IMG/VR virus record: IMGVR_UViG_3300017727_000147
Location: 1 to 25,032 of that record
Length of the DNA stretch: 25,032 bases
Reading direction: 5' to 3' (one strand)
Source of the DNA: a virus
The notes under the pieces were generated by a model, which saw only the letters and a list, made by a program, of their open reading frames with translations, had not been told where the DNA came from and did not search any database. Position numbers and translations under genes: made by a program. Numbering within the stretch: position 1 is the stretch's first letter; every line of letters starts with the position of its first letter. Below are positions 6,109 to 23,944 of the stretch, piece by piece.

Positions 6109-9100
6109 ATGGCAGAGTTTAGTTTAGATCGATTTAAATTTAGATGGAAAGGTGATTGGACTACTGGTGAACCTTATAGAAGAGATGACATTATACGTGT
6201 TGGCGGTAAAAGTTATGTATGTTTGATTGCACACACATCATCGGCTTTATTTAGGACTGATTTACTTGCTACACTTCCGGGATCTAATCCACCTGTTCCT
6301 CAACCTAAATGGGTTGTAATGACTAGCGGCAGAACATTTTTAGGTGATTGGGCAACTGCTACAGTATACAACAAAGGTGACATTATAAACTATCAAGGAA
6401 GTTTATATACATGTAAAAATAGCCATACTTCAACAACTCTTCCTGCTGATGCTCCTACAATAGATGAAAGTGTGCCAATATCAAACGAGAATTGGGAACT
6501 GTTTATTCCAGGACAAAACTTTTTGACTAATTGGTCTGGTGACACCGACTACGGATTAGATGTATTAGTAAAATATAATGGTATTGTTTACAAGTCAATA
6601 AAAACGCATAATAGCGGATCTACATTTGAAGATAATGAAGATAAATGGGAAATATATTACGAAGGATACAATTATAGGACAGCTTGGTTACCAACTACCA
6701 AATATGTAAAAAATGATATTGTAAAATATGGAGGTAGTGTTTTTAGATGTAATGAAACTCATACATCCGGAGATTTACAAATTGATGCAACAAAATTTGA
6801 TTTAGAATTATTAGGAAGTCAGTATGACAGTGAATGGAGTGACACTGTTGTTTACAATCAAGGTGACATAGTCCGCTATGGCGGAACATTATATTATGCA
6901 GTTAATAATAATTTAGATAGTAATCCTAGTCAAGGTCAAGTATCTGATACTGATGATAGTACAATTAATTGGATTATTCTAGCCAAGACATATAATTTTA
7001 AAGGACTTTATAATACAGTAGATTTATCAACACAAACAATTGATGTTAAAGTAGATGTAGATTCAGTTGATGAAAAAGCAACTGGTAATTTGTATTTAAA
7101 CGGTGTAGAAAAAAATCAAATATCATTAGTTAGAACTGTAACCTATATTTTTAACCAATCGACAGATTCAAATGCTACTTACAATGATGTTACAAATCCG
7201 ATTTGTTTTAGTACAAGAGAAAATGGAATTGCTGGCGGCGGAACATATTTTGAAGATGACTATCCAGGAGCAGTCAAATATATTTTAGATGGTGTTGAAG
7301 TTACAAGGCAAAATTATTTCGATAATTTCTTATCCTCAGCAAGTCGACAGGTTTCACTAACTATTCCAGCTGCAAATACTGTTAGTATGTATTATTTCTC
7401 AGCAACAAACGTAGAAATGGGTGGTTTAATACCTAATACACCTGCACCAACAACTATAGCAGAAACCGACAAGCAATATAAAACAGGCGATGTTGTACAA
7501 CGTGGAGGAAACGTTTACTATGCAGTAAGAGATGTACACCTTTCAGACGGTGACGGGTCTAGTATTGATTATCTTGATCCTGAAGTTTGGGAATTACTTA
7601 TACCAGGAAAACTTTTTAGTGCTGGTTGGACTGCTAATAAATTATACAGTATAAATGAAGTAGTTGTGTATGCCGGTACTGCATGGGTATGTAATTTAGA
7701 ACACACTTCAGCAGATAATAATTTTCCAGGTGATAACGGTTCAGGATATGATTATTGGGACACCTTAATACAAGCAGGTCAACCAGGTGCTCTGCAAGCC
7801 AAGGGTGATTTAGTACAATACGGATTAGCTAGAGAACCTATAGGTGATTTATCAACTCTTGGAGATAAGCGTTTACCTATCGGACAAAAGAAACAATTGT
7901 TATCAGTAGAAAAAGATAGTATTTCTGAAGAATTAGAAGCATTTTGGAGGAATCTGTCAACAGACACTGATACAATATTTGTTGCAAATCACGGGCAAGA
8001 CGAAAAAGATTTTGGATTTAGTTGGAGATCACCATTTAAAACTGTAAGACATGCTTGTGAATATGTAGAGGATAATTTTACCGCAGGAACACTAGTTAAA
8101 ATTTATGTAGCAACTGGTAGATTCGAAGAAGTTGGCCCTATAAGTGTACCAGCTGGATGTGTTGTAATGGGAGACGAATTGCGTTCAACAACTGTAGTAG
8201 CTACTGGACCCAAAATAGCATACACTGATACATTCAAATATATTCAAGAATATTTAACAAGGTTAAAACAGTTATTCCCGCAACTTATACAATTACAAAA
8301 CGCAACAAAAGATGAAGCAAATACGTTTGTACAAGACAAGACAGGACCTATAGCGGAGGTAACATCTATCTCAGTTATAAATCAACTGATAGATGACTAC
8401 GAAGCATTTATTGATGCAAACGTTGGTAGTGGTTCGTCACCTGATGTAACAGGATCTAATGAAGCTACAACAAGCACAAGTGATGTAAATGCAGCAGCGA
8501 TCCTAAGTAGGAACGTAGAATTTATAGCCAAAGAATTAATATTATATGCTAAGGCAGAATATCCAAACGATACTTTACCAGAAGCAGAAATGCGCGAAGA
8601 TATTAGACACTTGATTAGAGCATTTAACAGAGATTTAAATTATTCAGGCAATTGGGCAATATCAATGTCAGCAAGACGCTATTATAACAGTGTACTAGGT
8701 TCTCAACTAGACGACCTGTTGTATATGAGAGACACTACTGGTTTAAGAAATATGACTACTGAAGGATTACAAGGTACTCTTAATCCCCCAGGAGTTTTTG
8801 CACAATACCAAAAACCAACAGGAGGTGCTTTGGTATCATTAGATCCGGGTTGGGGACCAGCAGATGAACGTGTCTGGATCAATAACAGATCTCCTTATTT
8901 ACAGGGTGTTACTAACATAGGTACAGCATGTGTGGGTAAAAAAGTTGACGGTGCACTACACAATGGTGGTAACAAATCAATGGTGTCAAATGACTTTACA
9001 CAAGTATTAAGTGATGGTATTGGTGCTTGGGTTACTAACAATGGTAGAGCAGAACTTGTATCAGTGTTTACATACTATTGTCAAATCGGATATCTTGCAG

Positions 9101-12100
9101 AAAATGGCGGAGTCATAAGGGCAACAAATGGCAACAATTCATACGGAAATTTTGGAAGTGTTGCAGACGGAAACGATCCTAACGAAACACCAATTCCTGT
9201 TACTGTTAACAATAGAGAAAATAATGCTATTATTAAAAGTGCTATAGCAGGCGGCGCCAACGATGAATTAAAAATATTTGAATATACAAATTGTGGTGAA
9301 CAGTATTCATTTGCTGATGCAGACATTACTGGAGCAGGCGCAGATGCAGATGTTGAATACACAGATTTTAGAAAAGGTGCATTATTTGAAGGCAGATTGG
9401 TTAATACTAAAGGGTCTGGAAGTGAAGGCGGCTCTGGTTATACAATTAGACAAAACTCTGCACAAGTTGATTTAAGCACATTAACGTCTATGACTTTAAA
9501 TGTTAATGAAGAAACACAATTTGCTAGTGAAATTTTAGGCATGAGAGTTATTTTAACTGCTGGTACTGGAGTAGGACAATACGCACAAGTAGCAGGATAT
9601 GATCAGCCAAGCAAAGTTCTTGATGTTGTAAAAGAAAGCGACGGAACACCAGGATGGGATCATATTGTGCCTGGCACAACTATACTAGGTGCACTAGACA
9701 GTACAACAACTTATAGGATAGAGCCGAGGTTGACCTGTTCAGCTCCACCGTTTGTAGCTAATACCTATAAACCACTACCAAACCCACGAACATGGGCAGA
9801 TATGGATTTTGGTGGAACTACAGTAACTTATACAGGCATATCTCTTGCAGAAGGAACTGGCGCAGTTGACGAGGAGGCTGCTGTAATTACAGCATCAGTA
9901 AATATTATAAGATCAGGAGATACTTATACAGCCGCAATAATAAATCCAGGTGCAGGATATGCTGTAGGAGATAGTCTTGTAATACCAGGTACTAGTTTAG
10001 GCGGAACTTCTCCAACAAATGATTGTACCATAGAGGTACTAACAAACTCTAATGACAGTACTAACAGTATACTTACTGTAAGTGTAACAGGAACTCCTAG
10101 AGGAGGAAGATGGGTTGCACTTACCACCGATGGTATTTTTGGATACAGTGATGATGGAGAAACTTGGTTTGAAGGTAATTTGCCGTTTACTGGTACATTT
10201 ATAAGAGTTTTAGCTTACAAAAATAGATTTTTAGCTGTATGTACAAACAGTAATAAAATTGCGTATAGTTTAACCGGACAAAGTTGGACAGAAAGATCAC
10301 TACCTGTTAATGCAGAATGGAAAGATATAGTATACGGATTAAATGCATCAGGTACAGGATTAGACAACGGAAGATTAGTTCTTGTTGGATCAGCAACACA
10401 ATCAGCTTTATATAGCACAAACGGATTAACCTGGAGTACTTCTACACTTCCTGTAGGAGATGACTCGACAGGCGATCAGTGGCAGGGTGTAGCATACGGA
10501 CAAGGAACATATGTTGTTGTAACAGGATCTAATAACAAAGATGTTGCATACAGCACAGACGGAATAAATTGGTCAAGATATGATGCAGTTTTTCCAGCAG
10601 GTGACTTTGATATTATAGATCTTGTATATGGTAACAACAGATTTATTGCATTTTCATCAACTGGTGATACACTAATAAGTTTAGATAAAGGAGCAACTTG
10701 GATAGCAGGCACAGATGCTCCAACTATTGACGGTTCTACTGCAATGGCCTGGAAACGATTAAAGTACGGTCAAGGTGTATTTGTAGGTATCTGTGACACG
10801 GGCGGACAGGTTATTGGCTTTGATGATACCAGTGGCCCAACAACATTTTTTGCAACAACCCAAGATGGAATATTGTGGACAGAAAGAGCATTTGAATATG
10901 AACAGAGTTGGACAGCATTAGCAATTGATAAAGATGCTGCCATACCAGAATGGAGAATATTATCTGACAATGCAACAAATAACGCCCTAGCAGTAATAAA
11001 CGTAGGTTCAACGGCAAAAGTACGTTCTGATATATCTGTAGGTTCATTTGAGAGTGTAAAAATATGGAATCCAGGAAGCGGATATACATCAGACAATTTA
11101 CCACAGATAACTGTTACTGATCCTAACTTTATTACTGAAGTTGAAATAGATGAAAGAATAGCTAGTGGTGTTTTGGCACAGCCTGACTTTGTAGATAGAG
11201 GTACAGGTTATAGAACTAGTACAAGTACAATAACAACTTCAGGAGACGGTTTTGCTGATATAGTTCCTCAGGCAAACTTACTAGTGCTAAACGGAGTAAA
11301 CTTACCTGTTCCAGGGCCCGGAGCACAAATAAGATTGTCTTCAATATTGAACATACTTACAGATGATCCTGATGATTTAAAACTATTTACAGCCGTCGGA
11401 GCAACAGATTTAGGTGATGACGGATCTGGAAACGGAACCCGCAAAGTAAGATTTACTATTAGTCCAACAATAGATAATGAGTCTAATCTATCACACGGAA
11501 CAACTGGTACAATAAATTTAAGATACAGCCAGTGTAGAGTAAGTGGACACGATTTCTTAGATATTGGCACAGGTAATTTTACACAAACAAATTATCCAGA
11601 ACTTTATGCCGGAGGTGCTTTCTTTACAGCTGCTCCTGAAAATGAAGTATTAGAAGTAAATGGCGGTAGAGTATTTTATGTATCAACTGACCAAGATGGT
11701 AACTTTAGAGGCGGCGAACTTTTCGGAGTTAACCAAGCGACAGGTGTTGTTACTATTAGTGCTGAATTCTTTGATCTAGACGGACTTTCGTCACTAGCAC
11801 TAGGTGGTGTGAGATTGGGTGGTACTGGTACAGTTGTAAATGAGTTTAGTACTGATGCAACATTTAGTGCAGACTCTAATAATATTATTCCAACACAAAA
11901 GGCTATTGCAACATTCCTTGCAGATAGGTTAAGTGTTGGTGGTTCTGATCTTGAAACCAACGCAATTACTGCAGGACAGGTTAAAGTAGGTACGAATGAA
12001 AATATAGTAGACATACTAGGTGGAGGATATTTAAAAATTCCAAGAGATGTAACTTTTGATGGAGCTGACGCCCTAGGCAATGTAACAAACACTCATGGTT

Positions 12101-12156
12101 CTTTGTTAGCTCAAATTATGTTTTTTAGATCTTTTACCAGAAGTGAACAACAATGA
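6109..12156 (+). CDS. Giant multidomain tail structural protein (chitin-binding-like modules, beta-helix, beta-propeller)
   Basis: 2015 residues, with GGAG at 6096-6099 and the shared start MAEF. Residues 1-560 hold seven W-x(4-6)-Y-x(2-3)-D-x-V-x-x-x-G-x-x-Y modules, often followed by C-x-x-x-HTS and similar to CBM5/12 chitin-binding folds. They are interrupted at about 320-440 by a cupredoxin-like insert. A beta-helix core starts near 623 (IFVANHGQDEKDF) and is interrupted at about 700-858 by a helical module (REDIRHLIRAFNRDLNYSGN). It continues through DGALHNGG and NNGRAELVSVFTYY (947-1020). Six Asp-box-like motifs (YSDDGETW to TTQDGILW, residues about 1346-1585) indicate a beta-propeller. 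The C-terminus carries SGHDFLDIGTGNF, STDQDGNF and PTQKAIA. It is a full-length paralogue of the split pair that follows. It is probably an outer baseplate or fibre component that contacts the cell surface; no catalytic site can be assigned. Confidence 0.85.
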   Translation: MAEFSLDRFKFRWKGDWTTGEPYRRDDIIRVGGKSYVCLIAHTSSALFRTDLLATLPGSNPPVPQPKWVVMTSGRTFLGDWATATVYNKGDIINYQGSLYTCKNSHTSTTLPADAPTIDESVPISNENWELFIPGQNFLTNWSGDTDYGLDVLVKYNGIVYKSIKTHNSGSTFEDNEDKWEIYYEGYNYRTAWLPTTKYVKNDIVKYGGSVFRCNETHTSGDLQIDATKFDLELLGSQYDSEWSDTVVYNQGDIVRYGGTLYYAVNNNLDSNPSQGQVSDTDDSTINWIILAKTYNFKGLYNTVDLSTQTIDVKVDVDSVDEKATGNLYLNGVEKNQISLVRTVTYIFNQSTDSNATYNDVTNPICFSTRENGIAGGGTYFEDDYPGAVKYILDGVEVTRQNYFDNFLSSASRQVSLTIPAANTVSMYYFSATNVEMGGLIPNTPAPTTIAETDKQYKTGDVVQRGGNVYYAVRDVHLSDGDGSSIDYLDPEVWELLIPGKLFSAGWTANKLYSINEVVVYAGTAWVCNLEHTSADNNFPGDNGSGYDYWDTLIQAGQPGALQAKGDLVQYGLAREPIGDLSTLGDKRLPIGQKKQLLSVEKDSISEELEAFWRNLSTDTDTIFVANHGQDEKDFGFSWRSPFKTVRHACEYVEDNFTAGTLVKIYVATGRFEEVGPISVPAGCVVMGDELRSTTVVATGPKIAYTDTFKYIQEYLTRLKQLFPQLIQLQNATKDEANTFVQDKTGPIAEVTSISVINQLIDDYEAFIDANVGSGSSPDVTGSNEATTSTSDVNAAAILSRNVEFIAKELILYAKAEYPNDTLPEAEMREDIRHLIRAFNRDLNYSGNWAISMSARRYYNSVLGSQLDDLLYMRDTTGLRNMTTEGLQGTLNPPGVFAQYQKPTGGALVSLDPGWGPADERVWINNRSPYLQGVTNIGTACVGKKVDGALHNGGNKSMVSNDFTQVLSDGIGAWVTNNGRAELVSVFTYYCQIGYLAENGGVIRATNGNNSYGNFGSVADGNDPNETPIPVTVNNRENNAIIKSAIAGGANDELKIFEYTNCGEQYSFADADITGAGADADVEYTDFRKGALFEGRLVNTKGSGSEGGSGYTIRQNSAQVDLSTLTSMTLNVNEETQFASEILGMRVILTAGTGVGQYAQVAGYDQPSKVLDVVKESDGTPGWDHIVPGTTILGALDSTTTYRIEPRLTCSAPPFVANTYKPLPNPRTWADMDFGGTTVTYTGISLAEGTGAVDEEAAVITASVNIIRSGDTYTAAIINPGAGYAVGDSLVIPGTSLGGTSPTNDCTIEVLTNSNDSTNSILTVSVTGTPRGGRWVALTTDGIFGYSDDGETWFEGNLPFTGTFIRVLAYKNRFLAVCTNSNKIAYSLTGQSWTERSLPVNAEWKDIVYGLNASGTGLDNGRLVLVGSATQSALYSTNGLTWSTSTLPVGDDSTGDQWQGVAYGQGTYVVVTGSNNKDVAYSTDGINWSRYDAVFPAGDFDIIDLVYGNNRFIAFSSTGDTLISLDKGATWIAGTDAPTIDGSTAMAWKRLKYGQGVFVGICDTGGQVIGFDDTSGPTTFFATTQDGILWTERAFEYEQSWTALAIDKDAAIPEWRILSDNATNNALAVINVGSTAKVRSDISVGSFESVKIWNPGSGYTSDNLPQITVTDPNFITEVEIDERIASGVLAQPDFVDRGTGYRTSTSTITTSGDGFADIVPQANLLVLNGVNLPVPGPGAQIRLSSILNILTDDPDDLKLFTAVGATDLGDDGSGNGTRKVRFTISPTIDNESNLSHGTTGTINLRYSQCRVSGHDFLDIGTGNFTQTNYPELYAGGAFFTAAPENEVLEVNGGRVFYVSTDQDGNFRGGELFGVNQATGVVTISAEFFDLDGLSSLALGGVRLGGTGTVVNEFSTDATFSADSNNIIPTQKAIATFLADRLSVGGSDLETNAITAGQVKVGTNENIVDILGGGYLKIPRDVTFDGADALGNVTNTHGSLLAQIMFFRSFTRSEQQ
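7075..7425 (+). other. Degenerate cupredoxin-like insert domain (coding)
   Basis: Residues about 323-439 of the 2015-residue protein resemble a cupredoxin-like module seen in marine phage and bacterial proteins. It has a TYIFNQS strand, an FST strand, a central YILDGVEV segment and a final MYYFSATNVEMGG. In the copies I know, these positions read HPL and YYxCxxHxxMGG, and supply metal ligands. Here the His of HPL is Asn and the Cys-x-x-His is gone, so only the Met-Gly-Gly remains. The fold assignment rests on this pattern alone. The paralogue at 12180 lacks the insert. Confidence 0.45.
10144..10880 (+). other. Asp-box beta-propeller domain (coding)
   Basis: Six regularly spaced motifs of the form S-x-D-(x)-G-x-x-W occur: YSDDGETW, YSLTGQSW, YSTNGLTW, YSTDGINW, SLDKGATW (the canonical Asp-box spacing) and TTQDGILW. 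Between them lie strands such as 'YGNNRFIAFSS'. This is typical of sialidase/BNR-type propellers. The catalytic residues of sialidases (an Arg triad, Tyr/Glu and Asp) are not evident, so binding or structure is more likely than hydrolysis. Confidence 0.7.
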
Positions 12157-12179: not shown

Positions 12180-14159
12180 ATGGCAGAGTTTAAATTAGGT
12201 AGATTAAGGTTTGTTTGGAAAAACGACTGGTCAGCAAGTACAGTTTATTTTCAAGATGACGTAATAGCATTTGGAGGAAAAACTTATATCTGTGTGCTTG
12301 GACATACAAGTTCAGCAAGTTTCTTTAGTGACTTTGACATAGTACCTCCAAAATGGAATCTTGTAAGTGACGGTCAATCCTGGAAAGGCGACTGGCAACC
12401 ACAGACATCTTACGTATATGATGATATTGTAAAGTACGGCGGTAGATTATATATATGTCAAACTAACCATACTAGCGCAGAAGATTCAACTACAGGATTA
12501 GAGTCAGACATAGGCAGCTGGGAAATTTTTGCCGAAGGAAATGATTGGAAAGGTAATTGGACAGTTAGTTTTGATTACAAAGCAAAAGATTTAGTTAAGT
12601 ATGGTGGTACTACATATGTGTGTAATACTGCTCATATTTCTGCAGCTAACGAAGCGGCAGGTCTTGAATCTGATTTATCTAAATGGGATATATTTAATCA
12701 GGGATTTGAATACAAAGGTGTTTGGTCAACAGCGACTAGATACAAAGTTAATGATGTTATAAGATTTGGTGCTAATTCGTACATCGCAACAGCTTATCAC
12801 ACATCAGCAGCAAGTTTTGGGACAGACAGTGCTTATTGGAATAGATTTGTTGACGGATTCCAATTTGAAAATGTTTGGTCATACGAAACATCTTACCAAA
12901 TTGGGGATATTGTAAAACACGGTGGTAACCAGTATATTGCAATAACAGAAAATTTAAATAAAATACCATCAACACAAACAAATGACTGGAATTTATTTTC
13001 AGAAGGATTTAGATATAGAGGCGACTGGGGAGATGATTCTTCTAATATAGATTATCTTATTGGTGACCTTGTAAGATATGGAGCATACACTTACAGAGCA
13101 ATTTTAGATCATAACGGACAAGAACCGCCTAGTGCTAGTTATTGGGAAAGATTTAATACAGGGCTGCAATGGCGCGGCGTTTGGTTAGATGACCAATATT
13201 ATAATCAAGGAGACGTTATAAGATATGGTGATAACTCTTATGTATGTGTCCAAAACCACGTTGCAGAAGGTGATGACTTTTCAACTGAAACTAGAGTAGG
13301 TGCAGGTGGTGGTGCAGAAAACTCTAGACCAGATTTAGATGTTGCCGGTGCATACTGGAACTTGATTGCTATAGGTAGTGAAACAAGCGTACTTACTACA
13401 ACAGGAGATTTGGTTTATTACGGTGGAGCAGGACCAACAAGATTACCAATCGGCGACGACGGACAAGTTTTACAGGTTAGTTCAACAGGCATACCGGAAT
13501 GGGCAACATTAGATTATGTTGATGATGTATATTATGTTGCAGAACATGGAGTTGATAGTCCGGCACCTATTTATGGAAAGTCAGTTGACAGACCGTTTAG
13601 AACAATTAGATATGCAACTCAGCAAATTGAAAAAGGTGCAAAAGTACCTAATGCAGCGAGACTTTTAGAATTAAACAGAAGATTTATACAAAGAGAGATT
13701 GTAGAATGGACTGACTATCAAATTACAAACGGTACTAGTCCTTTTACAACAGATTTTAATTATGACAGTGCAAAGTGTGAAAGAGATATGGGATTATTAG
13801 TAGATGCATTTATTTGGGATTTGACACACGGCGGCAATGTAAGAAGTCGCGAAGCAGCACTATCTTATGTGAATGACACAGCTGGATCTCCTTATCTAGG
13901 ACAAAAAACAGAAACAAAAGCAAGTATTGCATATGGACTTACAGTAATAGAAAAAGTTTTAAAACAAGAAGCCCCGACTACAAATTATCAAACCGAAAAC
14001 GGGGATAACTCAACAGCTATTGTCGCCCAATATTTTGAAACAGGATTAGGCAGACAAGACAATGTTGAATACGAAAGCACAGCAACAGCAGCATACAGTG
14101 GAACATCCGTTGGTAGCGGAGGATCCGGCGGTGGCGGTGGTGGCGGAGGAGGCTACTAA
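12180..14159 (+). CDS. Giant tail protein, N-terminal part of a split gene (chitin-binding-like modules)
   Basis: 659 residues, starting MAEFKLGRLRFVWKNDW, the counterpart of MAEFSLDRFKFRWKGDW in the previous gene. Seven W...Y...D-x-V...G-x-x-Y modules fill residues 1-420 (for example WKGDWQPQTSYVYDDIVKYG), several of them with C-x-x-x-HTS. A linker with LPIGDDGQVL leads to the first strand of the beta-helix core at 451 (YYVAEHGVD, then RPFRTIRYATQQIEKG). At about 490 a helical module starts (LELNRRFIQREIVEW; its signature Cys in KCERDMG is residue 533). The protein then ends in a glycine run and a Tyr instead of completing the module. The missing part lies at the start of the next frame. The GGA-GGA-GGC codons near the stop contain AGGAGG, the apparent ribosome site of that frame. 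The two products probably assemble together, or the split is recent. Confidence 0.85.
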   Translation: MAEFKLGRLRFVWKNDWSASTVYFQDDVIAFGGKTYICVLGHTSSASFFSDFDIVPPKWNLVSDGQSWKGDWQPQTSYVYDDIVKYGGRLYICQTNHTSAEDSTTGLESDIGSWEIFAEGNDWKGNWTVSFDYKAKDLVKYGGTTYVCNTAHISAANEAAGLESDLSKWDIFNQGFEYKGVWSTATRYKVNDVIRFGANSYIATAYHTSAASFGTDSAYWNRFVDGFQFENVWSYETSYQIGDIVKHGGNQYIAITENLNKIPSTQTNDWNLFSEGFRYRGDWGDDSSNIDYLIGDLVRYGAYTYRAILDHNGQEPPSASYWERFNTGLQWRGVWLDDQYYNQGDVIRYGDNSYVCVQNHVAEGDDFSTETRVGAGGGAENSRPDLDVAGAYWNLIAIGSETSVLTTTGDLVYYGGAGPTRLPIGDDGQVLQVSSTGIPEWATLDYVDDVYYVAEHGVDSPAPIYGKSVDRPFRTIRYATQQIEKGAKVPNAARLLELNRRFIQREIVEWTDYQITNGTSPFTTDFNYDSAKCERDMGLLVDAFIWDLTHGGNVRSREAALSYVNDTAGSPYLGQKTETKASIAYGLTVIEKVLKQEAPTTNYQTENGDNSTAIVAQYFETGLGRQDNVEYESTATAAYSGTSVGSGGSGGGGGGGGGY

Positions 14160-16930
14160 TGGCAACAATATTTGAAACAATTACGGAATTAAGTGGAATA
14201 GTCACTGATGCAATTACAGCTGGTGTAGCAACTAATATTCCAGCAAGGCATATCAGAACAACACTAGTTAGAATTTCTACAGGTTCTTACAAAGAAGTAT
14301 TACCAATTATTGTTCCTGCTGAATGTTGTATTATGGGTGACGAACTACGTGCAACAAATGTACAACCTAGAACAATTTATAATAGTGCTAACACTCTAAC
14401 AAGCATAGACGATTTCCAATATACATACGAAGGCATAAAGCACATGGAAAGCATCGTCGGTGATATTGTTACCGGTGCGACTGTTACAGCAGAATCTGGA
14501 AATACAAAAACTCAAGACCAATCTTGGCCATATGCAGAAACAGCAATTGTAGCTCCTGCTGTAAAAAAATTAGCAAGGTCTATAAGACGAAAAATTGATT
14601 ACGGACTAGGAATAAAAAACGAATCAGCATTAACTCCTTACTATGATATGACTGATCCTGCCGATGGCAAATTGCGCGATTTGAATTTATTAAACAAAGA
14701 ATTTATACAAGCAGAAATTGTTGGATTTATTGCTGATGGATATCCAAATTTAAAATATAGTAGAACAAAATGTAAACAAGATGTTGGATTTATTCTTGAT
14801 GCGTTAGCCTATGACTTAACATATGGCGGCAACTGGCAAACTGTAAAAGCCGGTGAAGCATATTGGGAAGCAACTAACCTACAAATTAATTCAAGTGAAA
14901 AAACAGCAACACTAGCTGCATACGGGTATCTTAGAGATCTTGTACAAACCGTTGGTAGAAATATTACAGTTACACCAGTATACCAAAGTGATAAAACTCA
15001 AAAGGCAGGGGTAGCTGGAGATACAGGAGCATCAAATAGAGCAAGAGATCTAGTAATTAATATTATTGATATTATAACTAATGGCTCAGGCACGGTTGCT
15101 ACTACATATCCAAGTTTAACCGGAACATCTGCAACTGTTGCATCTGACTTTGCTATAGCAAGAGACAACTTAGAAGTAATACAAGACAAAACAATTGATT
15201 TTATTAACGAAAACTTTGGATCTTTTAAATATAGATCTTCAAAGTGTCGTAGAGACTTAGAACTAATTATTGGTGATATTTCTTATGATGTTGCTCTTGG
15301 AACAAATTACAACGCAGTTTTTGCTGGACAAGCATACCAACGTCCGATTAACGCTTACAATTTGACAAGTCAAAGAATTGAAACTGTAGGTGCTTTACGT
15401 AAAGCAAGAGATGATTTAAAAATAAGTGTAACAACTGATGGATCAAGTGCGTCTGGATCAAGTAATTCAAGTACTAGAATACAAAATGCATTTAATGAGA
15501 TTGTAGACATTATTAATAATGGTAGTTCTAATGCAGATACGTTAACTTTTCCAAGTCCTACAGGCGTCGATCAAAATAGAGTGGATGCAAAAGATAATCT
15601 TATTGCAAACAAAGAATTTATAAAAGATGAAATAATTGCTTGGATTGCCAACCAAATAACTGTTAATTCAGGTAATCCTGGTAGTATATGGTATCAGTTT
15701 CAGTATGATCCTGTAAAATGTGAAAGAGATGTTGGATTTATTATTGATGCAATGTGCTATGATGTTTTATATGGCGGTACTCAAGCTACAACAAGAATAG
15801 CACAATCTTATTTTACAGAAACAACTGCTTATCCAGCAGGACAATCAGCACAAACTGCGGCAGCATATGATAGACTTGCAACTGTAATGTTTTATGTTGT
15901 GCAAGAAGATACAGGTTCTTGGACTAAAACTACTACTGAAGTACAAACAACTCCAGGTACACCTGCAACAGCAACAGAAGGTGCCCTGATACGTGACACG
16001 CAAATGCAGATTATCGAAGATGTAATCACAGCCGGAAATTTAAATAGTTTACCAGCAATTGTTAAACCGTCTATAACTTGGGCAGATGCAGAATATCAAA
16101 CTGCATTTAGTAATATAGCAAGTGATACTACTGATGTTATTAGATCAGTCACACAGTATATTACAGATACATATAATGATTTCAAATATAATCATGCTAA
16201 ATGTTCAAGAGATTTAGGCATAATACTTGAAGCAGCAAAATATGACGTACTTTTAGGAACAAATTTTGCTAGTATAAATGCAGGATTAAGTTATCTTAGA
16301 GCTCCTAGTACTAAAGTCTTAGGCGCACAAAAAACAGCAACGCTTGCGGCAAATGAATTTGCAAGAGCACAAATTAATAGTTACATGTCTGTATCTGCGG
16401 CACAAACAGGAATTAACGATACATGGGAATGGGTCCAAGATATTATTTGGAGTGGAAGTCCTGAAGGTGGTGTCAAAGCTAACGAAGATATTGAAGTATG
16501 GAATGCTATACGCCAACTAGAACTTAATAAAGAATTTATTGTTGAAGAAGTTTTAAATCATGTTGATAATAAATTTAAAGATAGAGTGACGGCAATTAAT
16601 ATTAACACAGATGAACTATCAATATCAGATACATCTTGGTTGTCAACAGGCATGGAGATAAAATTCTTTGATGATGAAACAGCAGGAGATTCAACTGATG
16701 CTGTTGTTAATGCAAACTTACTAGAAACATTAACATATTATGTAAAAGATATTACAAGTGCTACAACATTTACAATTTCGGAAACACAATATGGTACTGC
16801 AACAGACTTTACTGAATATGGTGAAGGATTTGTTGTATCAAAAGCATATGCATATGATCGTACATTATGTGCTAGAGATGTAAGAGAATACGTAAACGGA
16901 ATGAAGTGGGACTTACAATGGCCACAAGAA
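13651..16930 (+). repeat. Helical module repeat with Cys-x-x-Asp signature, about 158 residues per unit
   Basis: Coding repeat spanning the gene junction. The signature is an x-K-E-F-I-x-x-E-I helix, an F-x-Y-x-x-x-K-C-x-R-D-x-x-x-I-(I/L)-x-A-x-x-Y-D helix, then GGN or GTN and an A-x-x-Y-x-x segment. The Cys codons are at 13776, 14771, 15245, 15719, 16202 and 16868. The spacings within the second gene are 158, 158, 161 and 222 codons. The second half of each unit has two further helices (KTATLAAYGYLRDL and LVINIIDIITNG types). A related single copy without the Cys lies at 8503-8690 (REDIRHLIRAFNRDL). I know this pattern from large structural proteins of marine phages but can give it no named family. 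The fold is inferred to be all-alpha. Confidence 0.7.
14147..14152 (+). promoter_or_regulatory. Shine-Dalgarno AGGAGG embedded in the poly-glycine codons
   Basis: The last glycine codons of the 659-residue frame (GGA GGA GGC) contain AGGAGG six bases before the ATG at 14159, which overlaps the TAA stop at 14157-14159. This is the strongest ribosome site in the window. It argues that the second frame is genuinely translated on its own, by coupled initiation, rather than reached by frameshifting. Confidence 0.7.
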
Positions 16931-19900
16931 TGGGATAGAAATTACAACTTAACTGATGTTTCATTAGATGCTAATGGTACAACTTCAAGCACTACTGTTA
17001 ATACTAAATTATATCTATCTGCTTTCTACAAAAGTAGTTTAGCAGCTCGTTATTATGTTAATAGTGTAATTGGATCACAAGAAGAAGATTTCTACTACTT
17101 ACGCAATGGAACAGGATTAAGACTGCAAACACTTGACGGGTTACGCGGCGACTTAGGTCCTGCAAATGCATATGGTACAAGTAGACCAACAGCAGGTGCA
17201 TATGCATCATTAGATCCGGGTTGGGGACCAGACGATACAAGAGTTTGGATTAGTGCAAGATCACCATACGTACAAAACTGTACCACATTTGGTTTTGCCG
17301 CAATTGGACAAAAAATTGATGGTGCACTACACAATGGAGGCAATGATTCGATTGTTAGTAATGACTTTACACAGGTTATATCAGACGGTATCGGTGCATG
17401 GATAACAAACAATGGTAGAGCAGAGCTTGTGTCAGTGTTTACATACTACTCACACATAGGTTACCTAGCAGAAGCAGGTGGACGTATACGTGGAACTAAC
17501 GGTAACAACTCATATGGTACATTTGGTAGTGTAGCAGAAGGTGTTGATCCTGATGAAACTCCTGTAACAGCAATAGTTGATAATAACAAACAATACAATG
17601 CTGTTGTAAGTAATGTTTTCACAGACGGAGCAAACGAACTTCTACAAGTAGAATATTCTCATGCTGGCAACGATTATACTGAAGCTAACCTTAATATATT
17701 TGGTGCAGGTGACAGTGAAGAGCTTGTACAAGAAGATTTTAGAGATGAAGCTGTAAACCAGGTAAGAATTATCGAAGTTGATGATTCTACAGGCAACCCA
17801 GATGCCACAGCAGGTGGTAGTGGATACCTAGTAGCAACAAACACAGCACAAACTGGAACGACAAATAGTATTACACTTGCTGCGACAGATGGTAACTTAT
17901 CAACTGCATATCCAGGGATGAAACTTTATATTACAGGTGGTGCTGGCGTAGGTCAATTTGGTGTTATAGACACATACAATTCTGGTACTAAACTTGCTGG
18001 TATTGTTAAAGAAACAGATGGTACAGCTGGTTGGGATCACGTAGTTCCTGGCACAACTATTGTTGCAGCAAATAGTTCTTCAACTTATTTGATCGAACCG
18101 AGAGCACAATTTACTGCACCTACTCAAAGTAACACTGTTGTTACAGGTAATCCTTCTGTTACAAACGCAGTGGTTGAATTTATTGAAACTTCAGATGAAT
18201 ATACAGGTGTATCTATAACTACACAAAGTGACGGTACTGGTGCTACATTTGATGTTACACGCAACGGCGAAAAATATTATCTAGCAACTAATGCAGCTGG
18301 TACAGGTTACACCAGACTAGACACATTAACTATAGTAGGTACTAATGTAGGCGGTACAACACCGGCACATGATATTACAGTTACAATTACTGCTGTGGAC
18401 GCAGATACAGGTGCAATTACAGCATTTGACTTCTCTGGCAGAGGACGTCGAGGAAATTTAGCATTATTTGACGGTACAGGAACAGCTGGACATTATAGTA
18501 CAGATATGGGTGCAAATTGGTCAACAATTACGTTACCAACCAACGCTAACAACGGTTGGGATCAAATTGCAAGCGGACGTATTGATGACGGTACAACTAC
18601 ATTTACACAAAGTAAAGCGGTTGGTGTAGGTATTGCAGGAACTGCACTTATAGCTATTATTTCAGATGATGGAGATTCTTGGACAGCATCAAGTCCTGGA
18701 TCCATACAAGCAACTAATTTAACTGGCGTGGCGTTTGGACAAACTGACACAGCAATATCTAGATTTGTTGTAATTGGTGATAATGATAGAGACGTTGCGT
18801 ATTCGGATAACGGCGGCACAAGTTGGACAGTAACTACTAACGCATTACCGAGCACAGGTTATACAGCAATACAATATGGCTTAGGATTATTTGTTGCTGT
18901 CAAAGCAGGAAGCCAAGAAATGGCATACTCCGCAGATGGTATTACATGGACAACAGTAGCAACAGGAATGCCAAGCACAGATGATTGGACAAGCCTAGCA
19001 TTTGGTAATGGTAGATTTGTTGCAATAACAAGCGATACAACAGGAGTTGCATATAGTATAGATGGACAAAATTGGACTGCTGTTGCAGGTGCTCTTGTAG
19101 GAACTGTGGGTAGAAAAATTAAGTACGGTCAGGGTATGTTTGTTGTGACAACAGATGATGCAAATCAATTAAGTATCTCTGAAGATGGTGTGTATTGGCC
19201 AAGCGGAGGATATACGCTTACTGGTGCAGCACTACCAGCAGGTGGAACATCAGGTGTAACGTTTGGTAACAATGATAGAGATCCAAACTTTATTGTATTC
19301 CCTAGTGCGGCAACAACTGTTCACGTAAAAGCAAAACTTGGAGCTACCACAAAAGGTAGAGTCGGTGTTGCAAACCAACAAGTATTTGAAGTAAGGATTA
19401 CAAATCCAGGTTCAGGATACGGTTCAACTCCTCCTACAGTTACAATTACAGATCCTAATAATATTAACGATGTACTTACAACAGTCAGATTAAATTCCGG
19501 TGTGTTAGCACAACCAACATTTATAGCAAGAGGTAGTGGATTTATTACAGCCACAGCAGAAATAGATGCTACTACAAGTAATGGTTTTGCAGACTTCTTA
19601 CAAGATGGTCAGTTTATTGCTGTAAGACGTTTAAGTGCTACTCCAGTAAATGGATCTAACATAGTGTTTGATGATTTACCAGGACAAGTGTTCAAACTAG
19701 TTAACACTGTATCACTAGTAGGTCTTATTGACGGTGATAAAACTGCTTTCTTACAACTATCACCTAACATGGAAATTGAAGATGCTGTAAGCGATGAAAA
19801 CCCAGTTACAATGAGAATTAGATTTAGTCAAACACGACTAACAGGACACGATTTCTTAGACATTGGAACAGGTAACTTTGTTGATACAAATTATCCCGGT

Positions 19901-20389
19901 GACCCTGTAAACGCACCAAAGGCTTCTAGTGAAACAGTAAGTTCAAATGGTGGTAGAGTGTTCTTTACAAGTACTGACCAGGACGGTAACTTTAAAGTTG
20001 GTGATTTATTTAGTATTGAACAGTCAACTGGTGTTGCTACATTGAATGCTGAAGCATTTAATATTGCAGGACTACAGGAACTATCACTAGGTGAAGTTAC
20101 ACTAGGTGGTAACTCTGCAAGTGTTACTGAATTTAGTACAGATCCGTTCTTCACAGCAAATAGTGATACTGTTGTACCGACACAGAGAGCAATTAAAGCA
20201 TACATTGAAGCACAAATTGGTGGCGGAGGTGCATCTCTTATTGTTAACAGTGTAACTGCAGGTGACATATTCATTAACGGAACACAAATTACGACAGTCA
20301 GTGGCGCGACGATAAATATAAAAGCAAACGTACAGTTCCAAGGCGCAGTACTTGGTACACCGTTAGCATACAATTACTTTTTAAGATAA
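14159..20389 (+). CDS. Giant tail protein, C-terminal part of a split gene (helical repeats, beta-helix, beta-propeller)
   Basis: 2076 residues. The start overlaps the previous stop (TAATG) and is backed by AGGAGG. Residues 1-30 (IFETITELSGIVTDAITAG) match the second half of a helical repeat. Residues 34-67 resume the beta-helix strand (LVRISTGSYKEVLPIIV, then GDELRATNV). Five helical modules follow, with signature Cys at 205, 363, 521, 682 and 904; the last carries an insert of about 85 beta-rich residues. The core resumes at about 965 (YYVNSVIGSQEEDFYYLR) and runs through DGALHNGGNDS and NNGRAELVSVFTYY (1054-1128). Six Asp-box motifs (YSTDMGANW to ISEDGVYW, about 1446-1680) form a propeller. 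NPGSGYGSTPP, GHDFLDIGTGNF, STDQDGNF and PTQRAIKAYIE close the protein, in the same order as in the 2015-residue paralogue. It is probably a host-facing baseplate or fibre component. Confidence 0.85.
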   Translation: MATIFETITELSGIVTDAITAGVATNIPARHIRTTLVRISTGSYKEVLPIIVPAECCIMGDELRATNVQPRTIYNSANTLTSIDDFQYTYEGIKHMESIVGDIVTGATVTAESGNTKTQDQSWPYAETAIVAPAVKKLARSIRRKIDYGLGIKNESALTPYYDMTDPADGKLRDLNLLNKEFIQAEIVGFIADGYPNLKYSRTKCKQDVGFILDALAYDLTYGGNWQTVKAGEAYWEATNLQINSSEKTATLAAYGYLRDLVQTVGRNITVTPVYQSDKTQKAGVAGDTGASNRARDLVINIIDIITNGSGTVATTYPSLTGTSATVASDFAIARDNLEVIQDKTIDFINENFGSFKYRSSKCRRDLELIIGDISYDVALGTNYNAVFAGQAYQRPINAYNLTSQRIETVGALRKARDDLKISVTTDGSSASGSSNSSTRIQNAFNEIVDIINNGSSNADTLTFPSPTGVDQNRVDAKDNLIANKEFIKDEIIAWIANQITVNSGNPGSIWYQFQYDPVKCERDVGFIIDAMCYDVLYGGTQATTRIAQSYFTETTAYPAGQSAQTAAAYDRLATVMFYVVQEDTGSWTKTTTEVQTTPGTPATATEGALIRDTQMQIIEDVITAGNLNSLPAIVKPSITWADAEYQTAFSNIASDTTDVIRSVTQYITDTYNDFKYNHAKCSRDLGIILEAAKYDVLLGTNFASINAGLSYLRAPSTKVLGAQKTATLAANEFARAQINSYMSVSAAQTGINDTWEWVQDIIWSGSPEGGVKANEDIEVWNAIRQLELNKEFIVEEVLNHVDNKFKDRVTAININTDELSISDTSWLSTGMEIKFFDDETAGDSTDAVVNANLLETLTYYVKDITSATTFTISETQYGTATDFTEYGEGFVVSKAYAYDRTLCARDVREYVNGMKWDLQWPQEWDRNYNLTDVSLDANGTTSSTTVNTKLYLSAFYKSSLAARYYVNSVIGSQEEDFYYLRNGTGLRLQTLDGLRGDLGPANAYGTSRPTAGAYASLDPGWGPDDTRVWISARSPYVQNCTTFGFAAIGQKIDGALHNGGNDSIVSNDFTQVISDGIGAWITNNGRAELVSVFTYYSHIGYLAEAGGRIRGTNGNNSYGTFGSVAEGVDPDETPVTAIVDNNKQYNAVVSNVFTDGANELLQVEYSHAGNDYTEANLNIFGAGDSEELVQEDFRDEAVNQVRIIEVDDSTGNPDATAGGSGYLVATNTAQTGTTNSITLAATDGNLSTAYPGMKLYITGGAGVGQFGVIDTYNSGTKLAGIVKETDGTAGWDHVVPGTTIVAANSSSTYLIEPRAQFTAPTQSNTVVTGNPSVTNAVVEFIETSDEYTGVSITTQSDGTGATFDVTRNGEKYYLATNAAGTGYTRLDTLTIVGTNVGGTTPAHDITVTITAVDADTGAITAFDFSGRGRRGNLALFDGTGTAGHYSTDMGANWSTITLPTNANNGWDQIASGRIDDGTTTFTQSKAVGVGIAGTALIAIISDDGDSWTASSPGSIQATNLTGVAFGQTDTAISRFVVIGDNDRDVAYSDNGGTSWTVTTNALPSTGYTAIQYGLGLFVAVKAGSQEMAYSADGITWTTVATGMPSTDDWTSLAFGNGRFVAITSDTTGVAYSIDGQNWTAVAGALVGTVGRKIKYGQGMFVVTTDDANQLSISEDGVYWPSGGYTLTGAALPAGGTSGVTFGNNDRDPNFIVFPSAATTVHVKAKLGATTKGRVGVANQQVFEVRITNPGSGYGSTPPTVTITDPNNINDVLTTVRLNSGVLAQPTFIARGSGFITATAEIDATTSNGFADFLQDGQFIAVRRLSATPVNGSNIVFDDLPGQVFKLVNTVSLVGLIDGDKTAFLQLSPNMEIEDAVSDENPVTMRIRFSQTRLTGHDFLDIGTGNFVDTNYPGDPVNAPKASSETVSSNGGRVFFTSTDQDGNFKVGDLFSIEQSTGVATLNAEAFNIAGLQELSLGEVTLGGNSASVTEFSTDPFFTANSDTVVPTQRAIKAYIEAQIGGGGASLIVNSVTAGDIFINGTQITTVSGATINIKANVQFQGAVLGTPLAYNYFLR
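18494..19200 (+). other. Asp-box beta-propeller domain (coding)
   Basis: Six motifs are present: YSTDMGANW, ISDDGDSW, YSDNGGTSW, YSADGITW, YSIDGQNW and ISEDGVYW. They are spaced about 40-60 residues apart, with strands such as 'FGNGRFVAITSD' between them. It is the paralogue of the propeller at 10144-10880, in the same position relative to the flanking 'PGxGY' and GHDFLDIG segments. It is likely a binding or structural domain. Confidence 0.7.
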
Positions 20390-21115: not shown

Positions 21116-22066
21116 ATGGCAACGTATAGCAGTTTTAAGAGAATAGATAGGCAAGCAATTGTCGACGGACAAGTACAAGGGACAGATATTGCTCCCGGAG
21201 CTGTTGGTTCCAATGAGATTGCAACAGATGCTGTTACATCTCTTAAGATTGCAAACCAAGCGGTTACATCTGATAAACTTGGATCAACACTAGATCTATC
21301 AACAAAAAATATTACATATAGATCTATAGTAAATAATGATATTTCTGGTAGTGCGAATATAGCTGAAAGCAAAATGGCAACAGGCGCTGCTGAGGTAAAC
21401 CTAGGATATACACCTTTATCTACAACTGGTAATAATGCAATGAGCGGTAGACTAGCTGTATCTAACGGTAGTGCTAGTAGTCCAAGTATTAGAGGAAATG
21501 ACTCAGATACAGGTATCTATTTTGCAGACAATCAAGTTAGGTTTTCTGTAAACGGAAGTGATGCAATGACTATTGACAGCTCGGGTAGAACTACGTTTCC
21601 ACGTAAGCCTATGTTTGCTGCCGCAGGACAACCGGGTTGGTTATATACAAATAGTTTTGGAGGCGGTGTTGGTGAAAAAGAACTTAATAGTACTATGAAC
21701 TGGAACTTAGCTCACCAGTACGGTGGAAGTAATTTCAACACTAGCAATGGACGTTTTACAGCACCTGTGAGTGGATGGTATCATTTTAGTACTATGTATT
21801 ATTTGTATAATAATAACAATAGTACAAGTAGTTATATACATTCATTTTTCCGTAAAAACGGAGCTGTAAACACAACACCTAGTGGCAGAATTCCTTATAA
21901 TATTAACATGCACGGAAACACAAACAGTCACGATGACGGTGCTTGCTATAATAGTATACAATATTTGAACAGTGGTCAGTATGTAAGTTTAGCTGTCAGA
22001 TGGCATCAAAACAATTCAAGAATACATGCTGGACACCAAATTTTTAGCGGACAATTGATAGGATAG
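21116..22066 (+). CDS. C1q-tipped tail fibre / receptor-binding protein, copy 1
   Basis: 316 residues, with AAAGGTGAG (21104-21112) before the ATG. Residues 1-30 (MATYSSFKRIDRQAIVDGQ) form the start shared by all three tandem copies. Residues 30-90 are collagen-like or YadA-like stalk repeats of the type (I/A)xxGAVxxxKIAxxAVTSDKL, followed by NITYRSIVNNDIS. The middle has GYTPLSTTGNNAMSG and the fibre motif SPSIRGNDSDTGIYFADNQ...MTIDSSGRTTFP. The C-terminal 150 residues look like a C1q/TNF-type trimeric head: PGWLYTNSFGGG, GRFTAPVSGWYHFS, LNSGQYVSLAVRW, RIHAGHQIFSGQLIG. Such heads at the C-terminus of phage fibres are usual candidates for host receptor binding. This copy has the longest Asn/Ser-rich loop in the head (YNNNNSTSS). 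Confidence 0.8.
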   Translation: MATYSSFKRIDRQAIVDGQVQGTDIAPGAVGSNEIATDAVTSLKIANQAVTSDKLGSTLDLSTKNITYRSIVNNDISGSANIAESKMATGAAEVNLGYTPLSTTGNNAMSGRLAVSNGSASSPSIRGNDSDTGIYFADNQVRFSVNGSDAMTIDSSGRTTFPRKPMFAAAGQPGWLYTNSFGGGVGEKELNSTMNWNLAHQYGGSNFNTSNGRFTAPVSGWYHFSTMYYLYNNNNSTSSYIHSFFRKNGAVNTTPSGRIPYNINMHGNTNSHDDGACYNSIQYLNSGQYVSLAVRWHQNNSRIHAGHQIFSGQLIG

Positions 22067-22069
22067 ATA

Positions 22070-22996
22070 ATGGCAGATTATAATAGTTTTAAAAAGATTA
22101 ATTCAGAAGCTATAGTTGATGATTCTATTGCCGCAAGTGATATCGGCACTGGCCAGGTTACAACTGCTAAAATTGCACCCGGTGCAGTTTCAACAGATAA
22201 GTTTGGAAGCGGCGCAGTATCAGGGGATAAATTAGCTAGTACATTAGATATTTCTGGTAAAACGGTTACATATAGACCTATTGTAGACGGTGACATTGCA
22301 GCTGATGCAATTGCAGGAACACAGATGCAAACTGGTGCTGTTATAGACTCATTAGGATATACTCCTGTAAACACTGCCGGCGACACAATGACTGGCCAAA
22401 TACAAGTTGCAAACGGTACTATTCTTGGCAGTAGTGGTGCTTCTAATAGCGGCATAAGAATAGATGCACAAACAATTAATATAAGAGAAAACGGCACTGA
22501 TCGTATGTCTATTAACAGTAATGGACATCCTACACAAAGCAACCATCCAGCTTGGGAAGCAAGTGGTCGAGGAGGTTGGCGATATGGTAACAGCTACGAT
22601 GGAGCTCGCGCCTGGCGTGAACTTGACAACATGGGTTGGAACTTTAACACAAGCGGCGGCATTACAACATCTAATAACTGTAGAGTAACGGTTCCTATTG
22701 CAGGATACTATTATGCTTATTTGTCAACATATTGGTACAATGACTCAAACTCAACAAACGGATACACTCACTTTAAAATTGGTCTAAATGGTGGCAACGG
22801 AGAATTAAGTGGAGGTAGAACTAACCACCAAATGTATGCATACGGATTAAGAAACAACTATGCTCCGGGTATTATGACGTCTTATGTACGTTATTTGAAT
22901 GCAGGACAATATCTAACTCCATTACCATATTTTGGAGGTAACCAAGGCAGGCATCACGGTAATCACAGTTATTGGTGTGGATATTTGATAGGATAA
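22070..22996 (+). CDS. C1q-tipped tail fibre / receptor-binding protein, copy 2
   Basis: 308 residues, starting four bases after the previous stop. The ribosome site AGGA (22060-22063) lies in the codons for the last residues (LIG) of copy 1. Residues 1-95 follow copy 1 (MADYNSFKKINSEAIVDDS, DKLASTLDISGKTVTYRPI, DGDIAADAIAG), then LGYTPVNTAGDTMTGQ. The middle differs: instead of the DTGIYF motif there is RIDAQTINIRENGTDRMSIN. The C1q-like head starts near residue 164 with GGWRYGNSYDGARAWREL and includes VTVPIAGYYYAYLSTYW, YLNAGQYLTPLPYF and RHHGNHSYWCGYLIG. It differs strongly from copy 1 and copy 3 in the loops, which suggests another binding specificity. A single Cys lies near the end. It may be an alternative or co-assembled tip. 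Confidence 0.8.
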   Translation: MADYNSFKKINSEAIVDDSIAASDIGTGQVTTAKIAPGAVSTDKFGSGAVSGDKLASTLDISGKTVTYRPIVDGDIAADAIAGTQMQTGAVIDSLGYTPVNTAGDTMTGQIQVANGTILGSSGASNSGIRIDAQTINIRENGTDRMSINSNGHPTQSNHPAWEASGRGGWRYGNSYDGARAWRELDNMGWNFNTSGGITTSNNCRVTVPIAGYYYAYLSTYWYNDSNSTNGYTHFKIGLNGGNGELSGGRTNHQMYAYGLRNNYAPGIMTSYVRYLNAGQYLTPLPYFGGNQGRHHGNHSYWCGYLIG

Positions 22997-22999
22997 GCA

Positions 23000-23944
23000 A
23001 TGGCAAATTATAATAGTTTTAAAAGAATTAACTCAGAAGCAATTGTAGACGGAGAAGTTGTTACTTCAGAAATTGGAGGAACAACAGTTGGTACAACTGA
23101 ATTTGCAGATGGAGCTGTGACAGAAACTAAAATCTTAGACGGTTCAGTAGCTGATACGCAGTTAGATACTAATTTTGATATTTCTGGCAAAACTGTTACA
23201 TACAGGGCAATTGCAAATGGTGATATTAGTAGTAGTGCAGGCATCTCCGGCGGCAAATTTGCAGGTGGAGCAATAGCTGGAAATTTAGGTGGAGCACCAC
23301 TTAATAAGGCCGGCGGAACAATGACCGGCGCATTAAAAACTACAACCGGTAGTACTGGAGCACCTGCTGTTTATAGATCAGGTGACGCTGATACAGGTAT
23401 TAGTTTTAGTGGAAATAGTACAACTATTTCAGCAGGCGGCCAAGCAGGAATTGTTATGAACACCAATGATACTCTAACAAAACCTAACAGTGTTGCATTT
23501 CATTCTCCTGGAACCAGTGGCTGGCGGTATGCTAACAGCTACGGCGGTACAGGATGGAGAAGTATGAACGGCAACTTTGGATGGACCGGTCAACAAAGAG
23601 GCGGAAGTAATTTTAATTACGGTAATGGTAGATTTACTGCACCAATTGCAGGATTTTATCAGTTTCAGTTTGAAACATATGCAAGAAATGATCGTAACAA
23701 CAACCAAGGTTACTATCATATGAGTTTTGGTGTTAACGGCGGCAACGGTATGGTCGGAGGTCGTGCTCCGCACGGAATATATGGCCATTCAAATGCACAG
23801 AGATACTATCCAAACGGCACACATGTTGATTTAGGAACATATCTAAATGCTGGACAGTATGTAGAAGTGCGTGTGTTCTGGCACAACAATCAAACCCGCT
23901 TTCACAGTGCTCACAGTGTGTTCAACGGATACATGATTAGCTAA
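23000..23944 (+). CDS. C1q-tipped tail fibre / receptor-binding protein, copy 3
   Basis: 314 residues, starting four bases after the stop of copy 2, again with AGGA in the codons of the upstream LIG end. Residues 1-95 are of the same family (MANYNSFKRINSEAIVDGE, FDISGKTVTYRAIANGDIS), followed by APLNKAGGTMTGALKT and a DTGISFSGN motif like the DTGIYF of copy 1. The C1q-like head begins near residue 170 (SGWRYANSYGGTGWRSM) and includes NGRFTAPIAGFYQFQF, LNAGQYVEVRVFW and RFHSAHSVFNGYMIS. Its head shares NGRFTAP and the GGSNFN lead-in with copy 1, but NGGNG with copy 2, as expected if copies exchanged segments. It is the last large gene before the terminator. It is probably a receptor-binding tip. 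Confidence 0.8.
   Translation: MANYNSFKRINSEAIVDGEVVTSEIGGTTVGTTEFADGAVTETKILDGSVADTQLDTNFDISGKTVTYRAIANGDISSSAGISGGKFAGGAIAGNLGGAPLNKAGGTMTGALKTTTGSTGAPAVYRSGDADTGISFSGNSTTISAGGQAGIVMNTNDTLTKPNSVAFHSPGTSGWRYANSYGGTGWRSMNGNFGWTGQQRGGSNFNYGNGRFTAPIAGFYQFQFETYARNDRNNNQGYYHMSFGVNGGNGMVGGRAPHGIYGHSNAQRYYPNGTHVDLGTYLNAGQYVEVRVFWHNNQTRFHSAHSVFNGYMIS

Follow-up and report, generated by a model that had tools for sequence, protein, structure and literature searches.

The window analysed here is the 25-kb IMG/VR virus record IMGVR_UViG_3300017727_000147, which contains clustered tail-fibre and baseplate genes from a T4-like marine phage. Two overlapping open reading frames (ORFs) on its plus strand, ORF1 and ORF2, together correspond to a giant tail fibre that is one continuous protein in close relatives. 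Both chains match the tail fibre family phrog_9851 (ORF1, E 1.7e-114, best stretch on profile positions 12-355; ORF2, E 3.4e-71, positions 932-1078), as does a tandem paralogue (E 5.4e-136), and a virion fibre role is predicted for them. In the unsplit relative L004 a single 2690-aa frame is colinear with ORF1 plus ORF2: ORF1 is 73.6% identical to L004 residues 1-647, and ORF2 residues 9-2076 are 72.9% identical to L004 residues 634-2690. The junction between the two genes comprises the following features, the evidence for each being given in brackets.

12180-14159, plus strand: ORF1, 659 aa, upstream chain of the split tail fibre (phrog_9851 match; colinearity with L004)
14159-20389, plus strand: ORF2, 2076 aa, downstream chain (phrog_9851 match; colinearity with L004)
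14049-14156, plus strand: Gly-rich C-terminal tail added to ORF1, 36 aa, ending GGY (no counterpart in unsplit relatives; predicted local distance difference test score, pLDDT, below 50 in the model of the split relative L006)
14147-14152, plus strand: Shine-Dalgarno (SD) sequence AGGAGG encoded by glycine codons GGA GGA GGC (codon -3 is GGA in 22 of 23 distinct split junctions)
14157-14161, plus strand: TAATG, in which the ORF1 stop TAA (14157-14159) overlaps the ORF2 start ATG (14159-14161) (sequence)

The initial annotation proposed a gene fission within a helical repeat, with glycine codons acting as a ribosome-binding site, and its reading of the junction holds. ORF1 closes with GGGGGGGGGY (nine glycine codons and TAC) followed by TAA, the AGGAGG lies six bases (CTACTA) before the ATG, and the -1 frame, in which the ATG stands, runs without a stop for only 14 codons upstream of the ORF2 start (14117-14158). 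The predicted N-terminal peptide of ORF2 is (M)ATIFETITELSGIVTDAITAGVATNIPAR. Among 13 starts in the window, that of ORF2 has the strongest pairing between SD and 16S rRNA (-12.1 kcal/mol), calculated with an anti-SD that may not be the host's. The fission itself now has comparative support from colinear L004 and from 23 split junctions described below.

To place the junction among its relatives, the ORF2 start was scanned against 2.9 million viral contigs, which gave 80 loci, and further loci came from two scans using alignments of either junction side. The resulting comparison set holds 62 distinct sequences readable on both sides of the junction, of which 23 are split and 39 unsplit. The 23 split junctions derive from about 30 IMG/VR contigs and break at the same site. 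All have a Gly-rich tail and TAA as the stop; the homologues of ORF1 read NGDNST..V..Y (or H), continue into a variable Gly/Ser-rich tail and end in GGY (GGDY once). The ATG stands at -1 relative to the stop in 17 of the 23, at +2 in three and at +3 in three, and the downstream chain begins with Met-Ala-Thr in 14 of 14 aligned split chains. Recurrence in 23 distinct sequences places this arrangement beyond chance. Purifying selection acts on both chains, with dN/dS against L003 of about 0.09 for ORF1 and 0.14 for ORF2, and four more comparisons also fall far below 1. Among the 40 best of 63 matching records in a set of 50,697 cultured phages, none reaches the first 12 residues of ORF2, and a literature search found nothing on tail-fibre gene fission.

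The glycine codons of the tail are constrained at one position. At codon -3, counted back from the stop, 22 of 23 junctions have GGA and the remaining one GGG, against a background in which GGA makes up 33% of glycine codons in these genes and 27% elsewhere in the tails, while codons -4 and -2 vary between GGA and GGC. GGAGG (GGGGG once) is found shortly 5' of the ATG in all 23 junctions; in L013, where codon -2 is GAC and Asp replaces Gly, GGAGGAG is nonetheless retained. The codon pair forming GGAGG is locked, and its contrast with neighbouring codons is position-specific.

The position of the break relative to the protein fold involves these further features.

12180-13340, plus strand: CBM_5_12-like repeats in the N-terminal part of ORF1, end approximate (PF02839, E 5.7e-37, five stretches)
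13518-13640, plus strand: start of the beta-helix core in ORF1, DVYYVAEHG...FRTIRYA (alignment; strand at residues 10-13 of the L006 model)
13653-14033, plus strand: front part of the helical module with KCERD, bounds approximate (AlphaFold2 helices, pLDDT about 90)
14171-14224, plus strand: helix completing the split module, at the ORF2 N-terminus (helix 215-235 in the L006 model, 140-157 in the unsplit L004 model)
14252-14365, plus strand: continuation of the beta-helix in ORF2, TLVRISTGSYKEVLPIIVPAECCIMGDELRATNVQ (alignment with L004; strands in models)
14645-17053, plus strand: further CxRD helical modules of ORF2, at 14645-14956, 15119-15430, 15593-15904, 16076-16387 and, in divergent form, 16742-17053 (motif)
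6109-12156, plus strand: tandem paralogue, 2015 aa, continuous, with the helical module absent at the equivalent site (alignment)

KCERDMG lies within ORF1 (Cys at residue 533) and the helix segment ..IVTDAITAG occupies ORF2 residues 14-22, so that the break divides one module, as was first proposed; further CxRD/CxQD modules are found at ORF2 residues 205, 363, 521 and 682, and a divergent one at 904. The AlphaFold2 model of the unsplit L004 module (pLDDT 82.8; predicted template modelling score, pTM, 0.78) contains helices 2-28 (broken), 41-61 (with KCERD), 65-76, 87-105 and 140-157, followed by strands. Since the stop and start of L006 share one frame, this split junction could be read through as a single chain for modelling. 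Helices of the L004 type recur in the joined model, confident on either side of a disordered tail (residues 187-213, pLDDT below 50), the first helix of ORF2 (215-235) included. Because the two models agree on the helices, ORF1 is predicted to retain all helices of the module but the last, with which ORF2 would open; in the models the cut precedes the final helix of the module, which itself interrupts the first beta-helix coil as an insertion. Joint folding of the two chains would be the simplest reading of these models.

Two elements of the initial annotation were upheld in part. The tandem paralogue at 6109-12156, taken there as the unbroken counterpart, does have a continuous beta-helix, but only about 16 residues separate its 'SPFKTVRHA' and 'LVKIYVATG' and the helical module is missing; L004 and 38 other unsplit contig sequences carry the module and provide the proper unbroken comparison. 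Likewise, the glycine linker thought to have become both tail and translation start does hold the SD in its codons, but the unsplit relatives have no such linker: a loop of about 10 residues joins the two sides and the glycine run is absent. The tail therefore appears to have arrived together with the split. The unsplit orthologues L004 and L005 are colinear with the pair, share about 73% identity with both chains and have the helical module in common, but differ in their single 2690-aa frame and in the short loop that stands in place of tail, stop and start.

Other fibres of the phrog_9851 family, from the marine T4-like phages Prochlorococcus phage P-SSM2 (PSSM2_301), Synechococcus phage S-CAM1 (SXBG_00229) and a Pelagibacter phage (Mosig_00063), share the CBM-like N-terminal repeats, the start of the beta-helix and the conserved C-terminal part with the window. 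Unlike the pair described here, they are single genes of about 1090-1330 codons that have neither a helical module at the site nor a split. The P-SSM2 match to ORF1 ends at residue 482 and resumes about 10 residues later at ORF2 residue 37. The likely order of events is that a continuous beta-helix received a helical module in its first coil, and that the break subsequently arose inside this module.

A tree inferred from the junction nests split among unsplit forms with three changes of state, and on it a single split clade is not rejected (approximately unbiased test, p 0.151). A single origin of the split was nevertheless dropped, as longer trees of ORF1 and ORF2 (the latter from about residues 13-910) force at least four changes, which may reflect recombination at the junction. 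Judged by these trees, the state has switched between split and unsplit at least four times. L004 clusters with the window and L002 with full support on both longer trees, and in the ORF2 tree this group, in which L004 is sister to the window, sits within a split clade. By full-length sequence, the unsplit allele of L004 and L005 is nested within split relatives (the window and L002), its junction having been exchanged or re-fused. Exchange by recombination seems more likely than point re-fusion, because L004 has no trace of the tail.

We consider it likely that the fibre is produced as two chains, through fission of its gene, a coupled and/or de novo start of the downstream chain, and co-folding. 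Under this proposal, an ancestral single tail-fibre gene of about 2,700 aa, resembling L004, would have become two cistrons, with the break placed in the loop before the last helix of the module inserted in the first beta-helix coil. The upstream chain would have acquired a disordered Gly-rich tail ending in GGY, whose last codons (GGA GGN TAY TAA TG) would serve as the ribosome-binding site for ORF2. ORF2 would then be made by termination-reinitiation, and hence coupled to ORF1, and/or by ribosomes that initiate de novo on the strong SD. Both chains would fold together as they are translated: the module that ORF1 begins would be completed by the N-terminal helix of ORF2, and the strands of ORF2 would extend the beta-helix.

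Coupled synthesis of two co-folding chains is, on our analysis, the most likely mechanism, because an overlap of -1 or a gap of a few bases is typical of termination-reinitiation. Gene pairs of this kind are over-represented among the subunits of heteromeric complexes (Huber et al. 2023, PMC10666635), and the process often relies on an SD in the upstream gene (Huber et al. 2019, PMC6728339). A -1 overlap or a gap of up to about +6 is taken to indicate it (PMC10666635), and of five E. coli pairs from which the SD was removed, three lost 60-90% of their reinitiation and one lost all of it (PMC6728339). If a termination-reinitiation pair is defined by a stop-to-start distance of about -8 to +6 nt and by an SD inside the 3' end of the upstream gene, all 23 junctions (-1, +2, +3) lie within this range and the SD is located accordingly. 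The junctions resemble the pairs described in bacteria and archaea (PMC6728339, PMC10666635) in their -1 TAATG overlap or tiny gap, in the SD within the 3' end of the upstream gene and in the expectation that the products belong to one complex. They differ in that the two genes are pieces of what is one chain in close relatives, cut within a domain. The comparisons establish the fission, its conservation and site, the codon lock, the selection on both chains and the repeated switching, whereas we infer the coupling, the stoichiometry and the reassembly of the chains.

ORF2 could instead be started only de novo, uncoupled from ORF1, a reading favoured by the AGGAGG, its ideal spacing and the -12.1 kcal/mol pairing. 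We regard this as rather unlikely, as in every junction stop and ATG either overlap or are no more than 3 nt apart, a geometry in which reinitiation dominates (PMC10666635). Unlikely too is the view that the products are independent virion proteins that do not co-fold, with ORF1 a separate carbohydrate-binding protein bearing a flexible tail. Its CBM-like repeats, the flexibility of the Gly-rich tail and the selection acting on both chains would fit such a role, but after the cut neither side has a complete first beta-helix coil or a complete copy of a conserved module, the residues flanking it are conserved as in unsplit relatives, and closely related phages make a single chain. Programmed frameshifting or stop readthrough, which would also yield a fused full-length chain, would explain why the two frames combined equal one full-length relative and why, in 17 of 23 junctions, ORF2 is shifted by -1 relative to ORF1. 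However, the frame relation is not conserved: in three junctions ORF2 is in the same frame with TAA between, and in three it is in the third frame. Upstream of the ATG, moreover, its frame stays open for only 14 codons in the window and 1 to 30 in relatives. Slippage is thus conceivable for some junctions only and readthrough for the three same-frame cases only, and because the ATG takes up all three frames with respect to the upstream gene, neither can account for the junctions as a whole. The initial annotation had thought frameshifting less likely; we judge it very improbable.

A sequencing or assembly artefact, such as an indel in the glycine-codon run, would be conceivable for a G-rich tract in metagenomic contigs, yet its probability appears negligible. 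About 30 contigs from many samples share the split while differing in tail and frame, and the Met start and SD are conserved. Split and unsplit forms co-occur in metagenomes 3300031519, 3300026094 and 3300027752, which argues against assembly error, and since the unsplit relatives have no glycine tract, no single indel interconverts the two forms. Unbroken genes lacking the AGGAGG-ATG arrangement in related genomes, which the initial annotation held would count against a fission, do occur in some relatives, but the split recurs in about 30 contigs. Because these other contigs carry it alongside unbroken relatives, the break is a real, evolving feature of an uncultured marine phage group rather than an artefact.

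Several observations weigh against the two-chain reading or parts of it. The 23 junction sequences are related and are not independent draws for the codon lock. Across the whole tail, SD duplex energy is no stronger than in a null of synonymous glycine codons (p 0.25), because any run of glycine codons pairs somewhat with the anti-SD; it is therefore the codon lock that carries the case for the SD. The joined L006 model has a pTM of only 0.52, and joining the chains could lead the helix to pack by proximity. Unrelated phage gene pairs with GGGY-TAATG but with GGY in place of GGA also exist. An ATG-masking RNA hairpin was considered as well: an eleven-base stem, CCGTTGGTAGC / GCTACTAATGG, at positions 14107-14161 would mask the ORF2 start (z -2.5). 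It was dropped, since it is not conserved in the other 22 junctions, and it therefore neither favours nor excludes coupling.

The same junction architecture was found in a second gene. A scan with the junction DNA pattern GGNGGAGGNTAYTAATGGCNAC returned 29 stretches, and a synonymous control with GGY returned 14. A gp6-like baseplate wedge gene is split in L252 (2523-4771), L263 (1774-3968, minus strand) and L267 into pieces of 542-560 aa and 188 aa, and is unbroken in Microcystis phage Mel-JY01 (629 aa) and Flavobacterium phage immuto (607 aa). The split wedge protein resembles the fibre in its ...GGGY tail, GGAGG, TAATG and Met-Ala-Thr start and in the division of a one-chain protein, but it is an unrelated structural gene, and its fission is apparently independent. 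The possibility that GGGY-TAATG is a pure by-product of the SD was rejected, as real gene pairs were recovered under both the GGAGG pattern and the GGY control. Because the control without GGAGG also yields real pairs, the Gly-rich tail has a role or a past that the SD does not account for. Other phage gene pairs, at L284, L287, L288 and L290 and at L289, L291, L293, L295 and L296, combine a Gly-rich ...GGGY tail with TAATG in the absence of GGAGG; in one example a protein of about 1190 aa is followed by MATRRTVDLLPEIFR...

The helical modules resemble phycobiliproteins. Foldseek searches with either model (L004 or L006) returned phycobiliproteins nearly throughout the top 50, with E values of 0.06-0.7 (best 0.06 and 0.12), probabilities mostly of 0.9-1.0 and template modelling (TM) scores of about 0.5. 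A profile of 55 modules searched against all PDB sequences gave 27 matches at E<=10, all 27 to phycobiliproteins (best E 0.0011) and aligned at K-C-x-R-D. Profile-profile comparison with 14 cyanobacterial phycobiliproteins taken from genomes reached a probability of 66% over 38 columns, compared with at most 0.2% for reversed controls. Among the 55 modules, the Arg is present in 87% and a Lys precedes the Cys in 85%; the Cys and Asp of CxRD were preset by the pattern used to pick modules, so independent support for these comes from the alignment to phycocyanin alpha. The Pfam family PF00502 matches seven of the 55 modules weakly (best E 0.0068), and ORF2 scores 18.1 bits against a curated cut-off of 22.2. 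The modules and phycobiliproteins have in common the CxRD signature in a middle helix and, as far as the models indicate, a comparable helical fold, but the modules lie below the curated threshold, their sequence likeness covers about 40 columns at a TM of about 0.5, and they belong to a virion protein. We conclude that the module is probably a remote homologue of phycobiliproteins and not a PF00502 member.

The CxRD motif is of the bilin-attachment type. A bilin-carrying fibre was nevertheless discarded as a candidate, since the bilin lyase family CpeT and the bilin reductase family Fe_bilin_red were not found in 12 contigs, which are possibly fragments. For the same reason a bound chromophore seems unlikely unless supplied by the host. 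Literature searches found no phycobiliprotein-like phage structural protein. Similar modules are seen in predicted structures of tail proteins of cyanophages such as S-CAM1, S-WAM2 and S-PM2, where they are apparently unannotated.

Taken further, and only as a tentative proposal, the tail-fibre modules might share ancestry with cyanobacterial phycobiliproteins, in which case fission would divide one globin-like domain between two mutually completing chains. The device of Gly-rich tail, SD and TAATG, having also split at least one baseplate gene (gp6-like), might then represent a recurrent, switchable intradomain fission with coupled restart, by which these phages assemble giant structural proteins.

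These phages offer a natural series in which the same giant fibre occurs in close relatives as one chain or as two cut within a domain, the glycine codons of the upstream tail doubling as the restart signal. In this series it can be tested directly whether a split domain made by coupled translation reassembles as well as an uninterrupted chain, and why phages alternate between the one-chain and two-chain states. For annotation, such split genes would otherwise be called broken or frameshifted, and the probable phycobiliprotein-like modules would give a first fold to many unannotated tail proteins of the cyanophage type.

Split carriers may be large phages. On the 155-kb contig G001, which carries the split, a Gp23-type capsid protein (L244:1426-2595, minus strand) is 66-70% identical to those of jumbo T4-like phages, its top matches being Vibrio phage 2.275.O (70%), Sinorhizobium phage Phosso and Escherichia phage A4, which rank above the cyanophages sharing its fibre. 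In the PDB, the N-terminal repeats of ORF1 weakly match the C-terminal portions of chitin deacetylases. Downstream in the window, at 21116-23944, three tandem paralogues of 308-316 aa have an N-terminal region in common, and the first shows a weak C1q-like match.

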